This document shows, piece by piece, positions 5,090 through 59,879 of a stretch of 59,879 bases of DNA (position 1 is the first letter of the stretch; every line of letters begins with the position of its first letter). The notes below the pieces were generated by a model. That model worked only from the letters and a program-made list of their open reading frames with translations. It was not told where the DNA came from and did no database searches. The translations under genes and the position numbers were made by a program. The DNA is from a virus: IMG/VR virus record IMGVR_UViG_3300034198_020932, positions 1-59,879 of that record; one strand, given 5' to 3'.

Positions 5090-6463
5090 ATGATTGTAAG
5101 TACTGAATTTCACACGGAAGACTCGTCATTAGTCATTTCGTATTATAAGCCCGATGGAACAATTGGATTCATGAAAAAACCAATTCTACCGCATGATCTT
5201 TATAACTGGAACCTAACTCCTACTCCAACTGAGAATCGTAATTGGGATGGAAAGTTCCTAAAGAAAGTTCAAGGTAAGTGGCTAAGCCGATTTAGGCTCG
5301 AAGAATTAACCCAAACCAGATTAGATCAAACTGAGTTAGATTCAATCTATTCAGATGATAGTCCAAAAAAGTACTATCTGGATATTGAGATTCAGCTATT
5401 ATCAACAGATTTCCCAGATCCAAATAAAGCTGCAATGCCAGTTAATTTAATAACGTTTGTGAATGAGGATAATATCTGTTTCGTAATGTCAACCATGAAG
5501 AGCTTAGAGGCTCCAGTAATTTCTCAAATGCAAGATGAAGTTAACGAGTATTTCAAAGCGCATGGTCAAGATTTCACTCTTAAGTATTTGTTCTTTGAAA
5601 CAGAGGAAGAGCTGATGACTACTTTCTTTCACAAAGTACTTCCAAAAATTCCATTCTTAACCGGCTGGAACGTAATTGGCTTTGACTGGTTGTATTTGAT
5701 CAATCGTTGTAAGAATTTAGGAATAGAGCCAATGGCCCAAATGCCGTCTAAAACACTGATCGGTAAAGCAAAGATGCCAATTCACATGGGACTTCTAGAT
5801 TACATGGAAGTTTTCATGAACACTAAACCATATAAGGTTGTTGAAAATTATAAGTTAGATTACATTGCGAATCTTGTGCTTGGAACCACTAAATTACATA
5901 GTGAATATGCAACAATGTTAGAAGCTCAACAAGACGTTGAAAACTTTATTAAGTATAACATTATTGATACAATTCTTATTAAATTAATAGAAGACAAACT
6001 TGGTCTACTTGATGTTGCCTTTGCAATTTCTAAATTTGCACGAGTTGACGTCTCAAAAGTATTCTCAGCAGTATTCATTACTGAGACTTTAATGTGTAGA
6101 GAATTCTTAGAAAGAGGTTTATACATGGCAAATGATAGACGCGATCTTGAAGAAGATGCAACCTATGATGGTGCATACGTTGCAAAACCTGAACCTGGAT
6201 ATTATAAGTATGTGTCGTGTTTTGACTTCGCATCAATGTACCCAAACATCCAAATTCAGTTTAACATTTCTCCTGATGCATATTTAGGAAAAATTAAACC
6301 TGAACAACAGCCAACTGAAGGTCAAATTCTAACAAAAAACAATACTCTATTTACTAAAAATTTCGATTCAGCAGCTCGCACAATCTTAACTCGTTTGTAT
6401 AACGGTCGTGTTGACACAAAGAGCGAAATGAAAAAATTAGAAGAGCAACTAGATGCTAAATAA
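5090..6463 (+). CDS. DNA polymerase family B, N-terminal part (exonuclease plus motif A)
   Basis: This 457-aa protein is the first half of a gp43-type polymerase. It carries all three 3'-5' exonuclease motifs: DIE (98-100), the N-x-x-x-FD type segment NVIGFDW, and YNIID. It also has polymerase motif A, DFASMYPNI (Asp379). It ends 79 residues from that Asp in a helix KKLEEQLDAK, before motif B. Motifs B and C are on a separate gene starting near 53654. No intein-like sequence is visible at the break. The final helix resembles the start of the C-part, suggesting a short duplicated overlap. The halves must associate to make an active site. It overlaps the next gene by 11 nt. Confidence 0.9.
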   Translation: MIVSTEFHTEDSSLVISYYKPDGTIGFMKKPILPHDLYNWNLTPTPTENRNWDGKFLKKVQGKWLSRFRLEELTQTRLDQTELDSIYSDDSPKKYYLDIEIQLLSTDFPDPNKAAMPVNLITFVNEDNICFVMSTMKSLEAPVISQMQDEVNEYFKAHGQDFTLKYLFFETEEELMTTFFHKVLPKIPFLTGWNVIGFDWLYLINRCKNLGIEPMAQMPSKTLIGKAKMPIHMGLLDYMEVFMNTKPYKVVENYKLDYIANLVLGTTKLHSEYATMLEAQQDVENFIKYNIIDTILIKLIEDKLGLLDVAFAISKFARVDVSKVFSAVFITETLMCREFLERGLYMANDRRDLEEDATYDGAYVAKPEPGYYKYVSCFDFASMYPNIQIQFNISPDAYLGKIKPEQQPTEGQILTKNNTLFTKNFDSAARTILTRLYNGRVDTKSEMKKLEEQLDAK

Positions 6464-14810: not shown

Positions 14811-15704
14811 ATGATTACATTTAAAGGGCACACGTTTGCACAAGCATATAAACAGTCAATAGAGCACTTATTGACAAACGGGATGATTAACAATGCTAGA
14901 GGCACAACAAGTAAAGAATTGCTTGATGTTGCAATAGTAATTGATGATCCAACTCAGTGCTTGTATGATAATGAGGTCAGAGGATCTCAACAAAAGTACA
15001 TTGCTGCTGAATTTCTATGGTATTACGCAGGCCGTAATGACGTTGCCTTCATTTCAAAATGGGCAAAGTTCTGGGAAACCATTCAAAACCCAGACGGAAC
15101 CGCTAATTCAGCGTACGGCAATTTAATCTTTAATGAGAAGAATCAATATGGGATTACTCAATACCAATGGGCGATCCAAAGTTTAATGAATGACTCTAGT
15201 ACTCGACAAGCAATCCTTCATTTCAACAAACCTGATCACCAGTATTTGACAAATAAGGATTTCGTATGTACGATGTACGCGAATTTACACATTCGTCAAA
15301 ATAAGTTATACATGAGCGTTTACATGAGAAGTAATGATGCTATTTGGGGTACTCCAACCGATGTAGCATTCTTTTGTTCTTTGCAGATGCAAATTCATGC
15401 TCATCTAAAGGAAATCTATCCAGATCTTGAACTTGGTACATATACTCATGTTGCAAATTCTTATCATGTTTACGATAGACACTATGATTTAGCACAAAGA
15501 ATGCTAGGGTCAGACTTCGGCCCAGTTACTCTACCTGCAATTACTACTGATTTGATAGAAATAGACGGATCCTCAAGCGAAGATTTTAATATTGTATTCG
15601 CAGCAGCAACAAATCATACTGATGAACTTGTGTTATTTCAACAAGACAATGATCTTTTAAAATGGATTTTTGAAAAATTAAAAGAAGATAAGAATGTCAG
15701 TTAA
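14811..15704 (+). CDS. Thymidylate synthase / dCMP hydroxymethylase family enzyme
   Basis: A 297-aa ThyA-fold enzyme. The catalytic cysteine is in DFVCTMYANLHIR (Cys153), followed by the phosphate- and base-binding segment MRSNDAIWGTPTDVAFF (172-188) and SYHVYDRHYDL (217-227). In ThyA the base-recognition residue is Asn in GLPFNIASY. Here Asp184 takes that place, as in T4 dCMP hydroxymethylase gp42, whose flanking sequence is also similar by memory. That favours dCMP over dUMP, and so hydroxymethylation rather than dTMP synthesis. But a dCMP deaminase follows with an 11-nt overlap, which normally feeds thymidylate synthase. The family is certain; the product is not. Confidence 0.8.
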   Translation: MITFKGHTFAQAYKQSIEHLLTNGMINNARGTTSKELLDVAIVIDDPTQCLYDNEVRGSQQKYIAAEFLWYYAGRNDVAFISKWAKFWETIQNPDGTANSAYGNLIFNEKNQYGITQYQWAIQSLMNDSSTRQAILHFNKPDHQYLTNKDFVCTMYANLHIRQNKLYMSVYMRSNDAIWGTPTDVAFFCSLQMQIHAHLKEIYPDLELGTYTHVANSYHVYDRHYDLAQRMLGSDFGPVTLPAITTDLIEIDGSSSEDFNIVFAAATNHTDELVLFQQDNDLLKWIFEKLKEDKNVS

Positions 15705-24976: not shown

Positions 24977-27013
24977 GTGAAAACAGTATTATTTACCTAC
25001 TATTCAAATCCGGTACAGGACGTTTTTCTAGAAAACATTGAATCGCTACTTAAAAATAGTGCATGCACGTATGACGAAATCGTTCTATGTTCTCAAATAG
25101 ACGTACCTATTAAAATAATAAAAGCCTTATCTAAGCACGCTATTGTAAGTCGAGTTTTTCCGGATCACAATTCTCAACAGGTAAAAAGAGCATCAAATCC
25201 AAACCGTTCTTATAAAGTCAGCCCATTCATATTAACTGCTCTGTCTTACAAGGAATCTATAGTTACCGTTTTTGATTCTCATCTATTCGTGATTAATCCA
25301 GTAGTCAATTACTCTGGCAATAATATCTTTTATAGGAACCATCGGGGAGTATTAAGCACACAGCTTTTTACAATCGTTAATACTGAGGCAACCTCTAATT
25401 TATTATTGAAAAGTTTAATTGATTGTGATTTCACAGATGACTCGACCAATCATAAATTCACTTTCATTATTGCAAATGCAGTACCGTTCACGACAGCAAT
25501 TATTTACGATAAGGCGTTCATATTCAGCAATCCTTCTGATCACGATGTGATAACCGAAGACAAGTTAATTGCGTTTGACCTATCAGAGACAATGACGTCG
25601 TCTGATGTACACAAACAGATGTGGGCTATTCGAAAGGCATACATTCCAAAAATTTCAACCCTAACTAAAATTGCGAATCATGCAAATTCTATAGTATCAA
25701 ATGCAGTTTCTGCGATTCAAGAAGCTGAAATGCCATTTAAAAAGACAGGAAGTCATGATCCAATAATACTTTTCAAATACACTTCACGAAGTCGACCTGA
25801 CCAATTTTATAGAGGTTTGATTAGTATCATTAATAAGTGTTCAAGTCCAAACTATTTAATATTATGTAGCTTCGATCATAACGATCCAACCTTACCTACC
25901 TATTTGGAATACATCAAGGAGTTAAACAATGACCGAATTACAGTTTGTCTAGGTGAGAGTAAAAGCAAAATAGACGCGATAAATCGAGATATTAACACAT
26001 ACGATAAGCCTTGGGATATTGTCGTTAACATGTCAGACGATATGATTTTCACAAAGGACGGATTTGATCTAATAATAAAAAGCGATTTCATTCAGTACTT
26101 TCCAAAGTTTGACGGAGTAATGCACTATCCTGATCAAGATGCCGGTCAAAAATTAATGACGTTATCAATACTCGGTAGAAATTATTACCTTAGATTCAAT
26201 TACATATACCATCCTGAATATTCTTCCCTATGGTGTGATAACGAGGCAATGGAAGTATCAATGATGCTTGGAAAATACAGGTACTCACCAGTTAGAATGT
26301 TTGATCATATTCACCCTGCATACGGCCATTGTCAAACTGACGAACAATACCGACACACAGAGTCATTTTATCACGCAGATAATGAGGTGTACCTAAGAAG
26401 AAAGGCAAAAGGTTTCAAGTTAAAGTTTGCAATATTGATTGCAACGATTGAGACCAGAAAGCCACAATTTGAAAAATTGAGAAGTTTCATACAATCTCAA
26501 ATCATTAAGAATTCTCTAATTGGTCAATGTGAAATAGTTCATATTAGTGATAATAAGGAAATTTCAGTAGGGCTAAAAAGGCAAAAGCTATTAGAATTAG
26601 CTAACAGTAATTACGTCGCATTCATAGATGATGACGATTGGGTGAGCGACGATTATTTAAAAATGATCTTGAATTCAATAGACTTACATGCACCAGACTC
26701 AATTGGATTTTTAGTTAGATGTACGTTTGATGGATCCTCTCCAATAATGGCAAAGGCCTCAAACAAATATGCCGACTGGGGAGAAGACATTGATGGATAC
26801 AAGTACGTTAGAACTCCTTATCATAAAACACCGATTAGGCGAGACCTTGCGGTTCAAATAGGATTTAAGGATATCCGATATGCCGAAGATCACGATTACA
26901 GCTGTCGACTAAAAGCTGCAGGTTTAATACGAAAAGAAGATTTCATTGACTTTCCTCTCTACTATTATAGTTATGTACATGAGAATCCAAATACAAAATA
27001 CGGTTTAAAATAA
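24977..27013 (+). CDS. Multi-domain glycosyltransferase
   Basis: A 678-aa protein starting at GTG. It has at least two glycosyltransferase-like regions. The C-terminal one (about 480-670) is a GT2/GT-A domain with GLKRQKLLELA and the metal-binding AFIDDDDWVSDDY, followed by YAEDHDYSCRLKAAG. The middle one (about 255-460) has NMSDDMIFTKDGFD and DGVMHYPDQDAG, also GT-A-like. The N-terminal 220 residues are unrecognised. Likely substrates are activated sugars; the acceptor (surface protein, glycan or modified DNA) is unknown. It is the first of five carbohydrate genes. Confidence 0.7.
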   Translation: MKTVLFTYYSNPVQDVFLENIESLLKNSACTYDEIVLCSQIDVPIKIIKALSKHAIVSRVFPDHNSQQVKRASNPNRSYKVSPFILTALSYKESIVTVFDSHLFVINPVVNYSGNNIFYRNHRGVLSTQLFTIVNTEATSNLLLKSLIDCDFTDDSTNHKFTFIIANAVPFTTAIIYDKAFIFSNPSDHDVITEDKLIAFDLSETMTSSDVHKQMWAIRKAYIPKISTLTKIANHANSIVSNAVSAIQEAEMPFKKTGSHDPIILFKYTSRSRPDQFYRGLISIINKCSSPNYLILCSFDHNDPTLPTYLEYIKELNNDRITVCLGESKSKIDAINRDINTYDKPWDIVVNMSDDMIFTKDGFDLIIKSDFIQYFPKFDGVMHYPDQDAGQKLMTLSILGRNYYLRFNYIYHPEYSSLWCDNEAMEVSMMLGKYRYSPVRMFDHIHPAYGHCQTDEQYRHTESFYHADNEVYLRRKAKGFKLKFAILIATIETRKPQFEKLRSFIQSQIIKNSLIGQCEIVHISDNKEISVGLKRQKLLELANSNYVAFIDDDDWVSDDYLKMILNSIDLHAPDSIGFLVRCTFDGSSPIMAKASNKYADWGEDIDGYKYVRTPYHKTPIRRDLAVQIGFKDIRYAEDHDYSCRLKAAGLIRKEDFIDFPLYYYSYVHENPNTKYGLK

Positions 27014-27017
27014 AAAA

Positions 27018-27695
27018 ATGGAAGCAAGTAAAGTTAAAGTTTGCATATTGAATGCATCTAACGGAACAGGCTGGTATCCAGTAGGATCACATAGACTTAA
27101 AAGATCATTAATCCATCATGGATACGCTCATGATCTTTTATTTTTTAATAATTGGCCAAACAATGAATTCGATAAAATGTGCCCGTATAATATAAAAGCA
27201 GCAGCCTTTGCTGAGGCTCTAAAAAAAGATTACGATATTATTTTATGGGCCGATTGCTCAGTGTGGGCCATTGATTATCCATATCCTGTGCTAGATATAA
27301 TAAATCATGACGGTTACTATTTTTGGAGATCAGGTTACACGTGCGCTCAGACCTGCTCAGACAAATGTTTAGATTACTTTGGGGTAGATAGAGATACTGC
27401 CGATACTTACCAAGATGTTTCAACTTCACTATTTGGAATTCATACAAAAAATGAACTTGGAGCTAGATTCATTAATGAATGGCTAAAGTCAGCAAAAGAC
27501 GGTCAATTTAAAGGTTCTAGAGAACATGATGGACAATCAAAAGATCCTAGATTTCTATTCCATCGTCAAGATCAATCGTGCGCAAGCATAATATCAAATA
27601 AGTTGGGAATGAAAATCCATGAAGAAGGCGAGCACATTCAATACTACAAGAAAAAACAACCCGACAATCTCATATTCACAATGAGAGGTCTTTAA
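27018..27695 (+). CDS. Putative glycosyltransferase, GT-A-like
   Basis: A 225-aa protein with features of small GT-A transferases: YDIILWADCSVWAID in the position of a D-x-D loop, DVSTSLFGIHTK, and FLFHRQDQSCASII, a common acceptor-side motif. I could not assign a CAZy family. It follows the large glycosyltransferase by 4 nt and precedes an FkbM methyltransferase, so it probably acts in the same modification path. Confidence 0.55.
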   Translation: MEASKVKVCILNASNGTGWYPVGSHRLKRSLIHHGYAHDLLFFNNWPNNEFDKMCPYNIKAAAFAEALKKDYDIILWADCSVWAIDYPYPVLDIINHDGYYFWRSGYTCAQTCSDKCLDYFGVDRDTADTYQDVSTSLFGIHTKNELGARFINEWLKSAKDGQFKGSREHDGQSKDPRFLFHRQDQSCASIISNKLGMKIHEEGEHIQYYKKKQPDNLIFTMRGL

Positions 27696-27709
27696 AAACA
27701 CACAAATTT

Positions 27710-28333
27710 ATGTATTCACAAAACGACGAAGAATCAATTCTTCTACAGCACCTAACTTCATTAACCGGCACTCTGCTCGATATTGGAGCAAATGACGGTA
27801 AAACTCTTTCAAATTCATTAGCCTTAATTGAAAAAGGCTGGTCTGCTGCCTTAGTTGAACCTGCAAAAATTCCATTTTCAAAATTAGCGAATCTACATAA
27901 AGACAACCAAAAGGTTCAGTGTATTAATTTAGCGATAGGCACTCAAATTGGAGAGCTAAAATTTTACTCAAGCGGCACTCACCTAAATGATGGAGATACT
28001 GATCTTCTTTCTACCTTATGCGAATCTGAATTATCTAGATGGGCTGGTACCGAAAATGAATTTACTGAAGAGACCGTATCAGTTGTCGATTTTAAAACAT
28101 TTTTAGACCATTCTGAGTTCAAGAAATTCGATCTAGTTTTAATTGATGCAGAAGGCCTTGATTACGAGATCCTAACTCAGATTGACCTTAACCAAATTGA
28201 ATGTTCAATGATTGTAGTTGAAACAAATAGTAAGGATGATGAGAAATACATTGAATATTGTGAGGCCTATGGGTTTAAACAAATCCATAAAACTCATGAA
28301 AATTTAATCTTTTCAAAAAATTTAAACTCTTAA
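27710..28333 (+). CDS. FkbM-family SAM methyltransferase
   Basis: A 207-aa methyltransferase of FkbM type. It has SAM-binding motif I LLDIGANDGKTLS, an acidic post-I residue ALVEPAK, and motif IV DLVLIDAEGLDYEIL. FkbM enzymes usually O-methylate sugars or small hydroxyl groups. Sitting among glycosyltransferases, it is likely to cap or decorate a glycan. The next gene starts immediately after its stop codon. Confidence 0.8.
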   Translation: MYSQNDEESILLQHLTSLTGTLLDIGANDGKTLSNSLALIEKGWSAALVEPAKIPFSKLANLHKDNQKVQCINLAIGTQIGELKFYSSGTHLNDGDTDLLSTLCESELSRWAGTENEFTEETVSVVDFKTFLDHSEFKKFDLVLIDAEGLDYEILTQIDLNQIECSMIVVETNSKDDEKYIEYCEAYGFKQIHKTHENLIFSKNLNS

Positions 28334-29116
28334 ATGGCTCATTTAGACGTAACTACCGGCACAGGATTCTTTTCATGTTCGACTGAGGCCTTATTGCAAT
28401 TAGTAATTTACTCATCACTGAACGGTAAACTACCAGAGTCAATCGATCGTAGCAAGCAATATGAATACCACACAAGTGATGCAATTACGAATATGATTCC
28501 ATACTACTTTAAGGAATCTGCCGAGCAGTTTGATGTCCCTCAAGGAGTTCAAATAAATTCAGATGGAGTCTACTCTCAATTCTGCGATTATCGAACACTT
28601 CAATTCGATATGATGAACCCTTATCTGTCAAAGTATTTTCAACCAAGTGAGAGAGTCAAATCTCGAGAATCCGAATTCATTCACAAGTACCGAATTTCTC
28701 CAGATAAGACATGCGCAATTTTTTACAGAGGAAACGATAAGGCTCGAGAGACACCTATTGCTAGTTACTCAGAATTTATTTCGCAAGCTGAGAAAGTCAA
28801 GGCAGAAAATCCAAATATTGAATTCTTGGTTCAAACTGATGAGGCTGAATTTCTTGAACTATTTTTAAGTAAATTCCCAGACGCTAAATACATATCAGAA
28901 ATTCCAAGAATTTCCAAGCAGGACAATTGGGTTACTCAAGTAATCAGTCGAGACTCTCGTCCGGATTTTGGAGTTGACTTTTTTAGTTCAGTTTTAATAC
29001 TTGCAAAGTGCCGTTATCTAATAACTCACTCAGGCAATTGCGGATTTTGGAGCGTTCTTTATCGTGGAACATTTGATGGAGTACGCCAATGGCAAAACGA
29101 TCATTGGATAATTTAA
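28334..29116 (+). CDS. Putative GT-B glycosyltransferase, fucosyltransferase-like
   Basis: A 260-aa protein. The segment CAIFYRGNDKARETP, then NIEFLVQTDEAEFLELF, and near the end YLITHSGNCGFWSVLYRG, resemble the nucleotide-sugar site of O- or alpha-1,6-fucosyltransferase-type GT-B enzymes, where an (H)xRxxDK loop and a T(D/H)SG(N) loop are conserved. The match is from pattern memory and could also fit other GT-B families. It directly follows the methyltransferase stop. Confidence 0.45.
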   Translation: MAHLDVTTGTGFFSCSTEALLQLVIYSSLNGKLPESIDRSKQYEYHTSDAITNMIPYYFKESAEQFDVPQGVQINSDGVYSQFCDYRTLQFDMMNPYLSKYFQPSERVKSRESEFIHKYRISPDKTCAIFYRGNDKARETPIASYSEFISQAEKVKAENPNIEFLVQTDEAEFLELFLSKFPDAKYISEIPRISKQDNWVTQVISRDSRPDFGVDFFSSVLILAKCRYLITHSGNCGFWSVLYRGTFDGVRQWQNDHWII

Positions 29117-29129
29117 AAATTTTACTAGT

Positions 29130-29981
29130 ATGAAATTAGCAGTAGGTTACGTTGTATTTGATGGGCTTGAAACTCTAGAAGCCTCAATTCGTTCAATTAG
29201 AGAATGCGTCGATATCGTGATTGTCTCTTACCAGACCGTGTCATGGGGAGGTACTCAGTGTTCGCCATTACTACTTCCCACATTAGAGAGGCTCAAGGAG
29301 AGCGGGCTTATTGACGTAATAATGGAATTCACAAAATTTGCCCCGTCATCCCTGACTAAACCGGACGATGTGATTCGAGCTAAGAAGTATGAATGTGATA
29401 AGCGACAAACTTGTTTGGAAAAAGCTCTTGAGCTTGGAGCGACCCATTATACTTCAATGGACGCGGATGAGTTCTACATAAAGGAGCAATTCGAAGAGGC
29501 AAAACGCCAAATCATCCAAGACAAGTTACAGGCAACCGCAGTCCGCTACATAAATTATTTGACACCCACTCTGCATCAAGGCTATTCTAGATTCAAGGTA
29601 CCGTTCATCTACGAGATTGGCTCAAAGAGTCGCCATCATTCAGTACAGTTCATGTTCTCTGACGTCGATCCAACTCGTGGAATCACCGATGATTCCTATA
29701 CCCGATCCAGAGTTTTTGAGCGTGATCTAATAACGATGCACCACATGGAAATGGTTAGGGAAGACCTGCTTGGCAAGTACCAAGCCTCAAGTCGTTATTT
29801 CAAGAAAAGGGAAGACTTGCCGACTCTTGCTGAGGATATTACTCATGCAAAGAAAACTGGCGAGCTCAGGTTCAGAGCAATCCATTTCGGGGATTCACTA
29901 AGCGGTTTAAACAAGGATTTAGTATTAACTGAATGTGAGGATCTTTTCGATTTACATTCCTACCGTTACGGTACCAGATAA
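29130..29981 (+). CDS. Glycosyltransferase (GT2-like)
   Basis: A 283-aa protein with a GT2-style start (MKLAVGYVVFDGLETLEASIR) and the metal-binding MDADEFY at about residue 110, preceded by GATHYTS. It is the last gene of the carbohydrate cassette. Its 3' end overlaps the convergent baseplate gene by 30 nt with no terminator between, so the opposing transcripts collide or overlap. Confidence 0.65.
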   Translation: MKLAVGYVVFDGLETLEASIRSIRECVDIVIVSYQTVSWGGTQCSPLLLPTLERLKESGLIDVIMEFTKFAPSSLTKPDDVIRAKKYECDKRQTCLEKALELGATHYTSMDADEFYIKEQFEEAKRQIIQDKLQATAVRYINYLTPTLHQGYSRFKVPFIYEIGSKSRHHSVQFMFSDVDPTRGITDDSYTRSRVFERDLITMHHMEMVREDLLGKYQASSRYFKKREDLPTLAEDITHAKKTGELRFRAIHFGDSLSGLNKDLVLTECEDLFDLHSYRYGTR

Positions 29982-42987: not shown

Positions 42988-44274
42988 ATGATAGATTCAT
43001 CAAACATCCAATCTCTTGTAGGAAACCATGTAGCTCCTTACATTTACAATTCCAAGGAATTCATTCCTGGAAAAACTCCAATTTATTACTCAGGCCCGTA
43101 TTGGGACAACCGCGAAATTGAAGCAGCAATCAATGCTTTTGTTAATGGTAAATGGATAACTACTGGTGAAAATGTTTTTAAGTTTGAAAGAGCATTTTCT
43201 CGTAGATTCAATGTTAAGCATTCGCTAATGGTCAACTCTGGATCCTCGGCAAATCTTGTAATGATTACTGCTCTAAAGACCAGATTTAATTGGCAGGATG
43301 AAGATGAAATTATCGTTTCTCCAGTTGGATTTCCAACTACAATTTCAGTTCTTTACCAGAACCGTCTCACTCCGGTATTCGTTGACATTGAATGGGACAC
43401 TCTTAATTTCGATGTAGATCAAATTGAGTCAAAAATTACTCCAAGAACAAAGGCCATTTTTGTTTCGCCAGTATTGGGTAATCCGCCTAACTTCGATAAG
43501 TTACTTGAAATTTGCGAAAAGCACAATATTCAACTTGTTGGAGATAACTGCGATAGTTTGGGTTCAAAATGGAAAGGTAAGTACCTTAATGAGTATTACG
43601 TTGCATTTTCAAATTCATTTTATCCAGCACATCACATTTCAACAGGTGAGGGAGGAATGGTTTGTACTAATGACGATGAACTCAAAAAGATAATGACGAG
43701 CGTTGCTTGGTGGGGTAGAGATTGTTACTGTGTGGGTTCAGCAAATCTTTTAGCATGCGGAACTTGCGGCAAACGATTCGACAAATGGCTAGACTCATAC
43801 GATGGAATAATTGACCATAAGTACGTATTCTCAAATATGGGATACAACTTGAAACCTCTAGACCTTCAAGGAGCAATCGGTTCTGAACAGTTGCTTAAGA
43901 TTGATGAAATTGAAACTAATCGTAAAGTATCAAAGACTCGATTGGAAAAAATATTCTTGGAAAATATCCCAGGAGTTAAAGCAGTTACAAGCTTAGAAGA
44001 ATCAGATACTTGCTGGTTTGGAACGCCTTTCATTTGCGAAGAACCTGGTCTAAAACAGAGACTTGTTCAGTATTTGGAAGATAATAAGATCCAAACTCGT
44101 AATTATTTCGCTGGAAATATTTTACTTCACCCAGGATATTCTCATTTAGGTAATTCAGCGGATTTCCCTGAATCAAATAAAGTGTTAGATAAAGTATTTT
44201 TCATTGGTGCTGCACCTCATTACACAGAGCCAGTATTTGAATACGTAGAACAAGTAGTAAAGAATTTTAAATGA
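42988..44274 (+). CDS. RfbH-like 3-dehydratase (PMP/[2Fe-2S], DegT family)
   Basis: A 428-aa DegT/DnrJ-family enzyme with the features that set the RfbH/E1 group apart from aminotransferases. The residue that would form the Schiff base is His (FYPAHHISTGEGG, His215) instead of Lys. It is followed by GRDCYCVGSANLLACGTCGKRF with four Cys (246, 248, 257, 260), which in E1 bind a [2Fe-2S] cluster. Such enzymes remove the C3 hydroxyl from a nucleotide 4-keto-6-deoxyhexose on the way to 3,6-dideoxysugars. It overlaps the next gene by ATGA, and a partner reductase is not obvious. Family assignment is firm. Confidence 0.8.
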   Translation: MIDSSNIQSLVGNHVAPYIYNSKEFIPGKTPIYYSGPYWDNREIEAAINAFVNGKWITTGENVFKFERAFSRRFNVKHSLMVNSGSSANLVMITALKTRFNWQDEDEIIVSPVGFPTTISVLYQNRLTPVFVDIEWDTLNFDVDQIESKITPRTKAIFVSPVLGNPPNFDKLLEICEKHNIQLVGDNCDSLGSKWKGKYLNEYYVAFSNSFYPAHHISTGEGGMVCTNDDELKKIMTSVAWWGRDCYCVGSANLLACGTCGKRFDKWLDSYDGIIDHKYVFSNMGYNLKPLDLQGAIGSEQLLKIDEIETNRKVSKTRLEKIFLENIPGVKAVTSLEESDTCWFGTPFICEEPGLKQRLVQYLEDNKIQTRNYFAGNILLHPGYSHLGNSADFPESNKVLDKVFFIGAAPHYTEPVFEYVEQVVKNFK

Positions 44275-45542
44275 TCATAGTATTAGGAGACGGATTACTT
44301 GCAACTGAGATAGTCAAACAGACCGGTTGGACTCAAGTTTCCAGAAATGGAGACGGTTTTGATATTACCGATCTTTCAACTTGGCAAAATCTATTAGATG
44401 AAGCCATCGTTATCGTGAATTGTATTGCATACACCAAAACGTATGATTCGAATCAAGATGCTAACTGGAAAGTTAACGTAGTTGGTGTAAAATCTCTAAT
44501 TGATTTCTGTAATCAAAGATCAATTAAATTGATTCACATTTCAACTGACTACATTTATTCAAACTCAGTACATCAAGCTTCAGAAACTGATGTACCCGTC
44601 CACCTACCTACATGGTACGGATATTCTAAATTGGTAGGAGATGCTCTAGTTCAATTAGAATCACACGATTATTTAATATGCAGAGAATCGCATAAACCAT
44701 ATCCTTTCCCATACGAAGTTGCCTGGGATGATCAGTTAACTAACGGAGATTTTGTAACAACCATTTCTGGCCTAATCATTGAGCTAGTCAGAAAAGGAGC
44801 AACTGGCGTTTATAACGTAGGCACTGATTTAAAAACTTGGCACTCGTTGACTGCTACTGAATTCAATACACTAGCCGGAAATCGTCCATCGATTGCACCG
44901 GCTGATATTTCAATGAATGTTTCAAAACTCAAAAGATTCAATAACTCTCTTAATAAAGAGGTTGTAATTGCAGCATACGATAGAGACTATTCATGGATTG
45001 GTCAACTTGACTCAACTATTAAACCTACCGTTTATCGTAAGGGTGAAGTCTCTGCAATTAATGACTCTGAAATTTATTTGTCAAATAACGTGGGCAGAGA
45101 TGTTCACACATTTTTCTATCATATCGTTAATCGATATGACAGCTTGGCAGACTTTACTTTTTTCTCACAAGACGATCCTTTCGATCATGTTGATAATTAC
45201 ATCAATTTGATCAATGGGTTACCTTGGGAGTGGACAGCCAATGCAGTTCTTCAAATCGATGAAATTTGGTTTTTTGATACTAAATTTAAGCATGTCTTAA
45301 CGACCGATAAATTAGGTAATCCTCATCACCCAGGATTAAACTTGGAACCAGTGTGGTCTCAGATATTTTCTGAACCTTTGCCAGAGAGTCTTGAGTTTGT
45401 TGCAGCTGGCCACTTTTGTGCTTCGCGCCAACAGCTTCACAAAAAACCAAAAGAATTCTATGAAAAGATTCTTAGAGTTCTAGAGGAGGATCCAATTTCT
45501 CCATGGTGTGTTGAACGCTTTGAAACTTACATATTCACATAA
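44271..45542 (+). CDS. SDR sugar reductase fused to a DUF3431-like domain
   Basis: A 423-aa fusion. Residues 1-235 are an RmlD-type short-chain reductase: an N-terminal Rossmann start IIVLGDGLLATEI (unusual G-x-G spacing), IVNCIAY, ISTDYIYS and the catalytic YGYSK. Residues 255-420 (SNNVGRDVHTFFYHIVNRYD, FTFFSQDDPFDHVDNYINL) resemble DUF3431, a glycosyltransferase-like family. The fusion could make and then transfer a deoxysugar. It ends at a strong terminator and follows the RfbH-like gene by ATGA. Confidence 0.65.
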   Translation: MIIVLGDGLLATEIVKQTGWTQVSRNGDGFDITDLSTWQNLLDEAIVIVNCIAYTKTYDSNQDANWKVNVVGVKSLIDFCNQRSIKLIHISTDYIYSNSVHQASETDVPVHLPTWYGYSKLVGDALVQLESHDYLICRESHKPYPFPYEVAWDDQLTNGDFVTTISGLIIELVRKGATGVYNVGTDLKTWHSLTATEFNTLAGNRPSIAPADISMNVSKLKRFNNSLNKEVVIAAYDRDYSWIGQLDSTIKPTVYRKGEVSAINDSEIYLSNNVGRDVHTFFYHIVNRYDSLADFTFFSQDDPFDHVDNYINLINGLPWEWTANAVLQIDEIWFFDTKFKHVLTTDKLGNPHHPGLNLEPVWSQIFSEPLPESLEFVAAGHFCASRQQLHKKPKEFYEKILRVLEEDPISPWCVERFETYIFT

Positions 45543-45570: not shown

Positions 45571-47439
45571 TTAATCTTCAATTTGTATTATTGGTTCTGG
45601 GTAGGATTCATTAGTTTCATCAGTCGTCACATTAGGATGATTAATATTCTCAGTTATTGATTCCATTAAATCCTTATTTAGATTATAGAATTCTGAATGG
45701 ACTGATGACGGGGTGTATTCTTTGTAGATACCGTAATTCTTTTCCTTTATTGAATTTAAAATTGTTTCCGATACTGAATCTGATGGAATTTCAATCAGTT
45801 TAGTATCTCGTTTAATATTCAAGTTTCTTGATCTCTTTTTTGCTAATTCTAACTGTAGCGCGATATCTTTTATTCTACTAGGTTCTGCTGCGATTGACAA
45901 CGGTTCGTATTGAGGCTTAATTGACTTAAGAATGCTTTCGATATTTCCATCGCTAATTACTACATGTCCTGTAATATTTTGAGTATCACTTGCTGCTAAT
46001 TTATTAAGAGCATTAGCTAGCGTTTCCTTTTTGAATGGAAATCTTTTGGTTTGTTTTCCTGGATGAATGCAGACAAGTAGAGTGGGTACACCAGTTTTTT
46101 CAGTTAGTGCTTTTGCCGTTTTGATATGGCCTTTATGGATTGGTTGAAATTCTGAGATTAGTAAATTTACCTTTTTGATTCTACGTTGCTCTCCTTGTTC
46201 TAACTCATAGGTTTCAAAATAGCCAGGGTTCTTTTCATCTCCAACAAATTCGTTAAATGATGGAAAGTAGTTCTCATATAGTTTTTCTCCCATTGCAACC
46301 TGATTTAATTTTTCAATTTGAGAAATTAGGTTAGATTTCATAGAATCTGTGAATAACGGAGAATTAATTTTAATTTTCTTTTTTCTAAAGGTATTAATGA
46401 AAACTCTGTATATTTCTTTGTAGTTTGGATTCTCTTGCAGTATTGGAATAACAGTCTGATCGTTTATTAGATCTGAATTAATATCAAATTCTTCACGAGT
46501 CAAGAATTCTGGAACCTGAATGTCAAGATCACTGTACTTATCTCCATATTCCTTAATGAATTCTACGAAAAGATGATTAAGTAGAGATACAAATCTCTCT
46601 TCAACTGTTTCTCCAGAGATGGTGAATGATCTTAGTTCAGAAAGTCTGTAACTTTCAATGAAATTCATTAGGTCGCTCACGATTATCCAAATGTAATCAT
46701 CGCTTTTTTTACCAACTTGAGGTTTAGGTAAGTTCTTTGAATTGTCGTAAAATACTGGATCAACCAATTTAGCTAATACTGCTGAATCTTCAGTTGAAGG
46801 CCCTTCGTCGTAAAATCTAAATACAACTTCGTCAATTGAACGATCGTCAATTGAATTTTGAGAATTCTCATCGACTGTTGGGCTAAGTATTGATATGAGA
46901 TGTTTAGTAAATGATTCGGTCTTAAACTTCTCCGATAACTTTTCAAGAGGAGTAAACACAAATTCTTGAATCTTTACTTGTTGATCCTCAGACAATTTTC
47001 CTTGAAATAGGATCGCAGGTTGATTAACGTTTAACGAGGTTGCCCATTTATTAAGCTCTTCTCTATCATGAATTACGCTAGTTGTTTGGTAATTCTCATC
47101 CAATACCTTGATATGGCTTATTGTTAGAGGATTCGCTCTACCTGGAGCATAATCGAACCCAAATACGTAATTTTCAGGTAGTGATTTTATGGAGTCAATC
47201 CCAAGACTCTCAAAATGTTTAACACCCGGCTCGTAGTACTTACTAAGAACTCGGTCGATGTAACTAATTTTGCTGTCTTTTTTAAAGAAGTTAAATTTAT
47301 CTGTACTTGCATCTCTTTTGGCACCAAAGTAGGCGCCTTCTATTTTTTCGTTAATGATGACGGTTTTATTAAGGAGGTTCTCCAAGAATTCCTTGCCACG
47401 TTTTTCATAAACGTCTCTTAAATGTGATAGTCCTGCCAT
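45571..47439 (-). CDS. Ligase-like nucleotidyltransferase fused to an HxGH nucleotidyltransferase
   Basis: A 622-aa protein with two nucleotidyltransferase domains. The N-terminal one has ligase/capping motif I as EKIEGAYFG (Lys32) and a motif IV-like IDEVVFRFYDEG (202-213), like RNA ligases. The C-terminal one (about 420-575) is a Rossmann adenylyl/cytidylyltransferase with SEFQPIHKGHIKTA (HKGH at 435-438), the NMNAT-type HxGH site, and a later SDSVSETILNSI that fits the ISxTxIR type position. SFNEFVGDE (394-402) between them matches the packaging tag. The late motif lies 6 nt before its ATG. The substrates are unknown. Confidence 0.6.
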   Translation of the reverse strand: MAGLSHLRDVYEKRGKEFLENLLNKTVIINEKIEGAYFGAKRDASTDKFNFFKKDSKISYIDRVLSKYYEPGVKHFESLGIDSIKSLPENYVFGFDYAPGRANPLTISHIKVLDENYQTTSVIHDREELNKWATSLNVNQPAILFQGKLSEDQQVKIQEFVFTPLEKLSEKFKTESFTKHLISILSPTVDENSQNSIDDRSIDEVVFRFYDEGPSTEDSAVLAKLVDPVFYDNSKNLPKPQVGKKSDDYIWIIVSDLMNFIESYRLSELRSFTISGETVEERFVSLLNHLFVEFIKEYGDKYSDLDIQVPEFLTREEFDINSDLINDQTVIPILQENPNYKEIYRVFINTFRKKKIKINSPLFTDSMKSNLISQIEKLNQVAMGEKLYENYFPSFNEFVGDEKNPGYFETYELEQGEQRRIKKVNLLISEFQPIHKGHIKTAKALTEKTGVPTLLVCIHPGKQTKRFPFKKETLANALNKLAASDTQNITGHVVISDGNIESILKSIKPQYEPLSIAAEPSRIKDIALQLELAKKRSRNLNIKRDTKLIEIPSDSVSETILNSIKEKNYGIYKEYTPSSVHSEFYNLNKDLMESITENINHPNVTTDETNESYPEPIIQIED

Positions 47440-53610: not shown

Positions 53611-53653
53611 TGGTAAATTAAACCAAATTGTGTATTTAAAGTACAACAAGTAT

Positions 53654-55267
53654 ATGTCAAAACAGCTAGAACAACAAATCAAATCATTGGATCTAAAGCA
53701 GAATGCAATAAAGATCCTAATTAACTCGTTTTACGGAGCCTTCGGTAACCGATACTTTTATTTTCACAACAATGATATAGCTCAGTCAATTACTTTGCAA
53801 GGTCAAGACTTGATCAAGTTCTCCATTAAAGCGGTCAATCACTATTTCACCCATAAGTGGCATTTAGACACAGAACTTCACGAAAAGCTTGGGATTACCG
53901 GTATGACAATCAATCAGATTGAGAAAGAAGCAGCAGTTTACACGGATACTGACTCAGTTTACGTATGTTTTGATTTCGCAGTTCAATCCGTTGAAGGATT
54001 AAACTTATCCGATAGTGAATCTCTTGAATTTTGCCTAGCAATCAATCGACATAGGTTAAAACACTATTTTGAGCAGGCATTTGAAAAATACGCATCTCAT
54101 TTCAACACAGATAATCGCCAGAATTTTGAGCTTGAGAACTTATCACGTGCCGGAATTTGGCTTGCAAAGAAAAAGTACGTGCTAAAGGTTTCATACAAGG
54201 ACAATAAGCATGAAAGATTATTGGACAAAGAATCCTTGATTATCAAGGGACTTGAAGCAATTCAAGCCTCATATCCAATATGGGCACGTAAACACCTACA
54301 GGATCTGTATTGGGAACTCTTAGACTTGGGTTACAACTTAGATCTTGAAAGAGATCTTATTCCTAAATTACTTAGTTTAAAAGACGAATGTAATGCACTA
54401 AGCGTTGATGAGATCGCATTCAACTTCTCAGTTAGAGTTTACGAAGACTACGTTAAGAAATTAAATCCACTTCAGCTTGAAACAGGTATGCCAATTTACG
54501 GCAGAGCTGCTGCATATCACAATCACTTAATCAAGAAAACAAATAATCAAAAGTATTCCTTGATTCGTAGCGGTTCGAAAATTAAATTCTACTATGCTGC
54601 TGCAAATGAACATAATTTCGATATTTTTGCATACGCTCCAGGTGCGTATCCTGAAGAATTCGCGGTTCCGATGGATCGTGATCAGCAGTTCTTTAGATTA
54701 ATTGTTGAGCCAATCAATAAGCTGCTGGTTGCAATGGGATATTCTGAACTTACTCCAAGTCTTGCTCGTAAAGTCGATATTATCAAGTCCAGAAGTCGCA
54801 GTAAGGACTTCACGCCAGAAGAAACTTTTCCGCTGTATGCAGTTAGTTCAGTTACGTTAGAGTATGCTGAAATTCCAGAAAGCTGTCAAGACTTCATAGG
54901 CAATCCTGATCTACAAGTTCCTCCAGCAATTTTCCCAATCTATATCTCATCCATTTCAAAATTTGGATTGAATACTGTGATTGTGCCTAAGCATGAACTT
55001 AAGAAGTATCGTGATCGAGTTGCCAAGAAATTAGGCATTGAGGTAGATGATCCCTTTGCAATCCCAGTTGAAACCATGCAAGAGTACCTAAGAGAAAACG
55101 GCTGGACTGAGATAATCAACAGTCCGACTGGAGGTTCATGGTTGCAAACTGAAAAATACGAAAAAGCGGTTAAGACCGGTAAGGACTATTATAAAATGGG
55201 ATATGATTTGGAAAAGGCATACAAGTCCGCAACAAAACCCAAACCTGTAAAAGTCACTGCTGAATAA
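53654..55267 (+). CDS. DNA polymerase family B, C-terminal part (motifs B and C)
   Basis: A 537-aa protein holding the second half of the gp43-type polymerase. It opens MSKQLEQQIKSLDLKQNAIK, then motif B as KILINSFYGAFGN, and motif C as YTDTDSVYV. The thumb region follows, and the C-terminus is basic, as expected for the clamp-contact region. I used the first ATG; a GTG 24 nt earlier would add eight residues. Its first helix is similar to the last helix of the N-part (KKLEEQLDAK), as if the break occurred with a short overlap. A small gene and primase follow. Confidence 0.88.
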   Translation: MSKQLEQQIKSLDLKQNAIKILINSFYGAFGNRYFYFHNNDIAQSITLQGQDLIKFSIKAVNHYFTHKWHLDTELHEKLGITGMTINQIEKEAAVYTDTDSVYVCFDFAVQSVEGLNLSDSESLEFCLAINRHRLKHYFEQAFEKYASHFNTDNRQNFELENLSRAGIWLAKKKYVLKVSYKDNKHERLLDKESLIIKGLEAIQASYPIWARKHLQDLYWELLDLGYNLDLERDLIPKLLSLKDECNALSVDEIAFNFSVRVYEDYVKKLNPLQLETGMPIYGRAAAYHNHLIKKTNNQKYSLIRSGSKIKFYYAAANEHNFDIFAYAPGAYPEEFAVPMDRDQQFFRLIVEPINKLLVAMGYSELTPSLARKVDIIKSRSRSKDFTPEETFPLYAVSSVTLEYAEIPESCQDFIGNPDLQVPPAIFPIYISSISKFGLNTVIVPKHELKKYRDRVAKKLGIEVDDPFAIPVETMQEYLRENGWTEIINSPTGGSWLQTEKYEKAVKTGKDYYKMGYDLEKAYKSATKPKPVKVTAE

Positions 55268-59473: not shown

Positions 59474-59879
59474 ATGCTAAGAAAAGTCACAGTAATAGGT
59501 GGAGCCGGATTCATCGGCTCTCATCTAATAGAATTATTAATCAGTGAAGGATTTTTTCCTACCGTCATTGATAACTTCTCAACTGGTAAAAAATCTAATC
59601 TACCGCTAGCTGGTATTGATATTAGAGATTATGATATTGCCGAGGATCCCAAGATGATCGCCTCGATGATAAAAGGTTCTGAATGTGTATTCCACTTAGC
59701 CGCATTAACGTCTGTCCAGGAGTCATTAGATCATCCTGATCGATATACTAAAGTTAATGTTGTTGGTACAGCAAACGTGCTTGAAGCCTGTAGAATTGCC
59801 GGCGTAAAAAAGCTTGTGTTTAGCTCGACTAGCGCGATCTATGGAAACACTGCAACCTTTCCTACTGATGAGACTCAGC
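59474..59879 (+). CDS. NAD-dependent sugar epimerase/dehydratase, truncated by the window
   Basis: The first 135 codons of an extended SDR enzyme. It has the NAD-binding start VIGGAGFIGSHLIE, VFHLAALTSV, and SSTSAIYGNT in the region of the catalytic Ser; the Tyr-x-x-x-Lys should lie past the window edge. Such enzymes (UDP-glucose 4-epimerase type) interconvert nucleotide sugars. It lies right behind the portal gene and starts in TATAAATG, which may be a late promoter or leader. It adds to the sugar genes at 24.9-30 and 43-45.5 kb. Confidence 0.8.
   Translation, partial: MLRKVTVIGGAGFIGSHLIELLISEGFFPTVIDNFSTGKKSNLPLAGIDIRDYDIAEDPKMIASMIKGSECVFHLAALTSVQESLDHPDRYTKVNVVGTANVLEACRIAGVKKLVFSSTSAIYGNTATFPTDETQ

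Follow-up and report, generated by a model that had tools for sequence, protein, structure and literature searches.

A predicted TolF-type iron-sulfur sugar 3-dehydratase and a reductase-DUF3431 fusion form a putative 3-deoxysugar module in a T4-like environmental phage

Introduction

The enzymes E1 and SpnQ share two hallmarks, a set of four cysteines and a lysine-to-histidine change, while ColD lacks the cluster (PMC8987622). In the cyanobacterium HT-58-2, the tolyporphin gene cluster includes a thymidylyltransferase gene, tolB, and tolyporphins bear abequose, a 3,6-dideoxyhexose, and 2-O-acetylabequose (PMC10459692). The TolF protein of this cluster is provisionally annotated in the literature as an aminotransferase, and we found no published assay of TolF or TolE. 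On the viral side, rfbH already appears among viral genes, as an auxiliary metabolic gene, in two virome studies (PMC10653327, PMC11295528). Here we compare with these systems a pair of overlapping phage genes that is predicted to make and transfer a 3-deoxysugar.

Results

Genomic setting

The window, i.e. the whole stretch of DNA analyzed, is a virus record of 59,879 bases and represents a fragment, not a whole genome. It encodes a gp23-type capsid protein, a UvsW-like helicase, a portal protein and a DNA polymerase; the virus is a T4-like, environmental phage. The following genes and domains are considered here:

42988..44274, plus strand: predicted E1/RfbH-type (TolF-type) NDP-4-keto-6-deoxyhexose 3-dehydratase, 428 aa, by profile and PDB homology
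43549..43767, plus strand: four predicted [2Fe-2S] ligands, C188, C246, C248 and C260 (C-X57-C-X1-C-X11-C, aligned with E1)
44271..44945, plus strand: RmlD-like SDR reductase domain, residues 1-225 of the fusion (RmlD E=1e-19)
44946..45542, plus strand: DUF3431 domain, predicted GT-A-like glycosyltransferase, residues 226-423 (DUF3431 E=1e-12)

The sequence-only reading of this DNA had described the two open reading frames, 42988-44274 and 44271-45542, as coupled by an ATGA, the first encoding a DegT-family protein with histidine in place of the Schiff-base lysine and the second an RmlD-like reductase fused to DUF3431; this observation is real and mostly right, and its anatomy is confirmed in each of these points, while its interpretation is partly supported. 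The window is colinear with two independent contigs, G001 (85.6 kb) and G002 (129.7 kb), the nucleotide identity being about 80-88%. Both genes occupy the same position there, with protein identities of 80-95%, so the pairing is not due to chance.

Elsewhere in the window, a Family B DNA polymerase is seemingly split into an exonuclease and polymerase start (5090-6463) and a C-terminal half (53630-55267) lying about 47 kb apart. The 622-aa product of 45571-47439 shows a cytidylyltransferase-like HxGH region around residue 430 and an N-terminal NEKIEGA faintly reminiscent of a ligase motif; a PDB search with this protein returned no match. In G001, the nearest relative, genes for two RNA ligases, a poly(A) polymerase-like protein and a metallophosphoesterase (L125, 1421-11341) adjoin those for a Gmd and a GDP-fucose-synthase-like protein.

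An E1-like dehydratase with a distinct cysteine spacing

The product of 42988-44274 matches the Pfam DegT family (E=3e-72) and scores 370.4 bits over residues 7-427 against the NCBIfam RfbH model NF011936, below its cutoff of 423. The best PDB matches are the E1 entries 3bcx, from Yersinia, and 3bb8 (E=8e-75, nearly full length). In the alignment with E1, C188, C246, C248 and C260 fall on C193, C251, C253 and C261, and H215, the first histidine of HH in FYPAHH (codon 43630-43632), falls on H220, the cluster ligands and the catalytic histidine of E1; the 3bb8 sequence has a lysine at the latter position. Unconserved cysteines or absence of the gene from related phages had been named as grounds for rejecting the assignment. 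We found H215 and C188 in all 86 viral homologues and C246, C248 and C260 in 85, the sole exception being the ColD-like S-CAM7, and the gene in both G001 and G002. All four cysteines are thus kept in the 85 Fe-type viral homologues, and, together with the histidine, in the cellular ones as well. The cysteine motif had been written C-x-C...C-x-x-C, which correctly included C246, C248 and C260; C257, also included, is variable among homologues and occupies no E1 ligand position, and C188 had been missed. A PMP-type, E1/RfbH-like sugar 3-dehydratase is well supported by these sequence comparisons.

In the E1 pattern, C-X57-C-X1-C-X7-C, the first two intervals agree with those of the window enzyme and the last differs. 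This last interval is X11 in 103 of 104 homologues and X7 only in L105, as in E1, with which L105 groups on the dehydratase tree; the phage and TolF enzymes therefore constitute a distinct subfamily. With this TolF-type subfamily defined by the X11 spacing and an adjacent SDR partner, the window enzyme qualifies as a member. We know of no activity for any protein of this subfamily. One homologue, from Woesearchaeota (L106, 5931-8684), is interrupted right after the catalytic HHM by several hundred residues that resemble an intein.

At L088, the HT-58-2 locus, the first base of the dehydratase frame is genome position 2,598,123, where tolF also begins, and the type-2 SDR upstream of it (2,596,678-2,597,817) is exactly tolE (PMC10459692, Table 10). 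TolF is 63% identical to the window dehydratase and has the same histidine, four cysteines and X11 spacing. Between TolE and the phage type-2 reductases the identity is 44-50%, and TolA is an RmlB (488 bits). Contrary to the aminotransferase annotation, TolF (L088, 7911-9314) carries the histidine and cysteines of the 3-dehydratases, which suggests that it is one of them. Of the annotated cellular relatives TolF is the nearest, and it probably makes the rare sugar of a cyanobacterial pigment.

One scan of IMG/VR yielded 527 relatives, and 79 records of a phage collection contain relatives, mostly more distant. The module is common in aquatic phages; given these counts, and with rfbH already on virome lists, the supposed rarity of a phage 3,6-dideoxysugar route does not hold. 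In a quick tree, which has long branches, megaphage LR756502 groups with the IMG/VR sequences (98% SH-aLRT), and two cyanobacterial sequences are nearest to this group. Cyanophages such as S-B05 fall elsewhere and probably acquired the gene separately.

An exchangeable reductase partner

The fusion frame (44271-45542, 423 aa) overlaps the dehydratase frame by the four nucleotides ATGA. Its reductase domain scores 66 bits against the rmlD family (cutoff 224) and possesses the glycine-rich motif and the catalytic T and YxxxK of extended SDR reductases, with G6, G8, T92, Y116 and K120 invariant in 30 homologues. A reductase lies directly 3' of the dehydratase in 71 of 84 viral loci, as type 2 in 35, as type 6, the type of the window, in 32, and as a type 6-DUF3431 fusion in four; SDRs of these types make up about 7% of all neighboring genes at the loci. 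The other 13 include contig ends, cyanophages with a different gene order and megaphage LR756502, where a type-6 homologue again follows the dehydratase, joined in this case to GT2. In nine of 16 bacterial loci, the gene directly before the dehydratase is a type-2 reductase. By parsimony, the dehydratase tree requires at least five switches of reductase type, which suggests that a reductase is needed but can be exchanged. This recurrent pairing with interchangeable reductases is the best reason to think that the reductase works on what the dehydratase makes.

The DUF3431 domain

In the model of the whole fusion, the structure past about residue 227 is unreliable, because the alignment had no DUF3431 rows. 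Modeled alone, the domain reached a pLDDT of 91.5; the 50 PDB structure matches listed are GT-A glycosyltransferases, with a best E of 1e-4 and TM-scores of only 0.28-0.44, which make the fold assignment no more than suggestive. A PDB sequence search with the DUF3431 profile gave a single, insignificant match. In 31 of 84 loci, the gene immediately before the dehydratase is a stand-alone DUF3431, and in L021 and L059 such a gene directly follows the type-6 reductase, the unfused form of the window gene. Elsewhere, DUF3431 is fused to GT2 and DUF5672 (L010) or to a weak GT10 match (L041). The GT2 domain that replaces DUF3431 behind the type-6 reductase of LR756502 is unrelated to it, and this fusion supports DUF3431 as a transferase. 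From sequence context and model together, DUF3431 is likely a glycosyltransferase.

Sugar-nucleotide genes and possible acceptors

Neither a 4,6-dehydratase nor a nucleotidylyltransferase of the expected families was found in the window, and supply by the host is therefore assumed. In bacteria, RmlB lies 0.5-10.4 kb from the dehydratase in four places in three genomes. A second dehydratase copy of HT-58-2 has an RmlB gene 493 bases away, and the distance is 1.8-1.9 kb in two other genomes, with a partial RmlB at 4.7 kb in a third. At the strict threshold, a dTDP-glucose dehydratase was not found in seven of the 20 bacterial genomes with a relative. Among the phages, RmlB exceeds its cutoff only in S-B05, and three others lie nearer the cutoff (292-339 bits).

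Four further genes of the window were considered for the acceptor, for later steps or for the sugar route:

14811..15704, plus strand: thymidylate-synthase-family, (d)CMP hydroxymethylase-like protein, Asp at the pyrimidine-specificity site (Asn in thymidylate synthase)
24977..27013, plus strand: 678-aa protein with two glycosyltransferase-like regions, the C-terminal one GT2; possible later step
27710..28333, plus strand: FkbM-family methyltransferase of the same operon; possible glycan methylation
59474..59879, plus strand: GalE-like epimerase, cut by the record end; 297-305 aa at full length in two colinear relatives

The plus-strand operon at 24977-29981, with the glycosyltransferase, the FkbM methyltransferase and three further, unassigned proteins, starts some 3 kb from the gene for the gp23 capsid protein, an arrangement in keeping with a glycan on the virion or surface. 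A dCMP deaminase adjoins the hydroxymethylase-like gene, and the two together suggest that the phage DNA is hydroxymethylated. Candidate acceptors are a virion glycan, 5-hydroxymethylcytosine DNA and the host surface.

The GalE-like gene behind the portal had been counted as a third sugar gene; it is indeed present, but about 14 kb away, and is at most a candidate member of this route. It was also considered as the missing 4,6-dehydratase and rejected, as galE is its best family and epimerases are its best PDB matches. TDE is the motif of the dehydratases; the relatives of the epimerase show SSTSAIYG instead.

Discussion

We consider it fairly probable that this gene pair is a compact module for making and transferring a 3-deoxysugar, with host-made dTDP-4-keto-6-deoxy-D-glucose as its most likely substrate. 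The dehydratase, with PMP and its [2Fe-2S] cluster, would take the C3 hydroxyl off an NDP-4-keto-6-deoxyhexose, most likely the dTDP-glucose derivative supplied by the host. The electrons would come from host ferredoxin, because the record showed no Fer2 (E3-like) protein; a Fer2 search for an E3-like or ferredoxin partner across the phage records was positive only for cyanophage S-B05. The RmlD-like domain would then reduce the 4-keto group. The product would be an NDP-3,6-dideoxyhexose; for a D-gluco-derived sugar, this means abequose or paratose, which differ at C4. The fused GT-A-like DUF3431 domain would transfer that sugar onto a phage-built glycan. The enzyme classes, the catalytic residues, their conservation and the genetic linkage can be read from the sequences; the nucleotide, the stereochemistry and the activity of DUF3431 are what we infer.

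An ordinary sugar aminotransferase, which the DegT fold and the annotation of TolF might recall, is hardly credible in view of the lysine-to-histidine change in all Fe-type members and of their four invariant cysteines. The CDP-hexose proposed earlier, when dTDP had not been considered, is the least supported nucleotide, and the classical O-antigen route of Salmonella and Yersinia through RfbF, RfbG and RfbH is a very improbable source here: RfbH is the top-scoring curated family and E1 the best structure match, but the dehydratase falls under the RfbH cutoff, its cysteine spacing is unlike that of E1, a CDP-glucose 4,6-dehydratase exceeds its cutoff in none of the 24 phage records and occurs in only two of 20 bacterial genomes, one of them that of the E1-type L105, and NTP_transferase is found in a single phage record of the 24. 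RfbF and RfbG were not found alongside the dehydratase in the window, which is a fragment. A GDP route is unlikely but stands higher: a phage Gmd would make GDP-4-keto-6-deoxymannose, which the same module would convert into a colitose-like GDP-3,6-dideoxyhexose. Six Fe-type phage records, including that of the closest relative G001, have a near-cutoff Gmd (386-408 bits), and several loci, e.g. L032 and L055, have gmd and fcl immediately ahead of DUF3431-dehydratase; in G001, Gmd and the GDP-fucose-synthase-like gene lie about 48 kb from the module and favor GDP there. On the other hand, most of the 24 phage records lack Gmd, ColD, the GDP enzyme already known, lacks an Fe-S cluster (PMC8987622), and fcl beside gmd suggests GDP-fucose as a separate product, with GT10/GT11-type transferases in the loci. 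In favor of dTDP are the kinship with TolF, whose cluster holds tolA (RmlB) and tolB and whose tolyporphins bear abequose, and the RmlB genes close to the dehydratase in bacteria. We would thus place dTDP first, GDP second and CDP third, the dTDP-4-keto-6-deoxyglucose substrate being likelier than its CDP form.

Whatever the nucleotide, the deoxysugar might instead be put on phage-made 5-hydroxymethylcytosine as anti-restriction armor, a doubtful possibility, yet one made more plausible by the hydroxymethylase-like gene than the sequence-only reading could tell. The product of 14811-15704 has its nearest matches among the hydroxymethylases of CMP (E 9e-21) and dCMP (E 7e-14) and carries the Asp of the specificity site, its gene is kept in both G001 and G002, and comparable Asp-type genes occur in G007 and G011; RB69 is a proposed precedent for phage-made sugars on hydroxymethylcytosine (PMC6024577). 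Against this, an ordinary thymidylate synthase of the Asn type occurs in four of the 24 records, so DNA is not the acceptor rule for the whole family, and no member of the thymidylate-synthase family was found in 13 of the 24, S-B05 included. A search for AGT-family transferases, run with no positive control, was empty, and in many loci the module sits within glycan islands holding several glycosyltransferases. The more specific proposal, that this phage sets a 3,6-dideoxyhexose of its own making on its hydroxymethylated DNA by means of the fused reductase-glycosyltransferase, is decidedly unlikely, and to our knowledge such a sugar has not been reported on DNA.

The new elements are the X11 subfamily that includes TolF, its exchangeable reductase, the separate reductase-transferase fusions and the likely role of DUF3431. 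They indicate that iron-sulfur sugar deoxygenases with interchangeable reductase partners are a family widespread among phages, predict a dTDP instead of a CDP route, and give the uncharacterized DUF3431 family a likely glycosyltransferase role. If true, this offers a testable route to which phage structure bears such sugars.

Compared with known systems, the window enzyme shares full-length homology, the catalytic histidine and four aligned cysteines with E1 (AscC/DdhC/RfbH, the CDP-4-keto-6-deoxyglucose 3-dehydratase, 3bcx), but its last cysteine interval is C-X11-C instead of C-X7-C, and neither CDP-glucose pathway genes over cutoff nor an E3-type reductase was found in the phage records. 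ColD, the GDP-4-keto-6-deoxymannose 3-dehydratase, and the S-CAM7 type share the DegT fold and the histidine replacing lysine; unlike the window enzyme, both lack the [2Fe-2S] cysteine set. RmlD, the dTDP-4-dehydrorhamnose reductase, has the fold and the catalytic T, Y and K in common with the partner domain, which differs by its short C-terminal part, a score far under the cutoff and the fused DUF3431. The rfbH of viromes is the same gene at the KEGG level, the available text of the two studies giving neither subfamily, partner, substrate nor fusion (PMC10653327, PMC11295528). The TolF/TolE pair of HT-58-2 differs in that the tolyporphin cluster has dTDP-glucose genes, of which the window has none, and in that the window partner is a type-6 RmlD-like reductase fused to DUF3431; TolE itself is homologous to the type-2 reductase that fills the partner slot in other phages.
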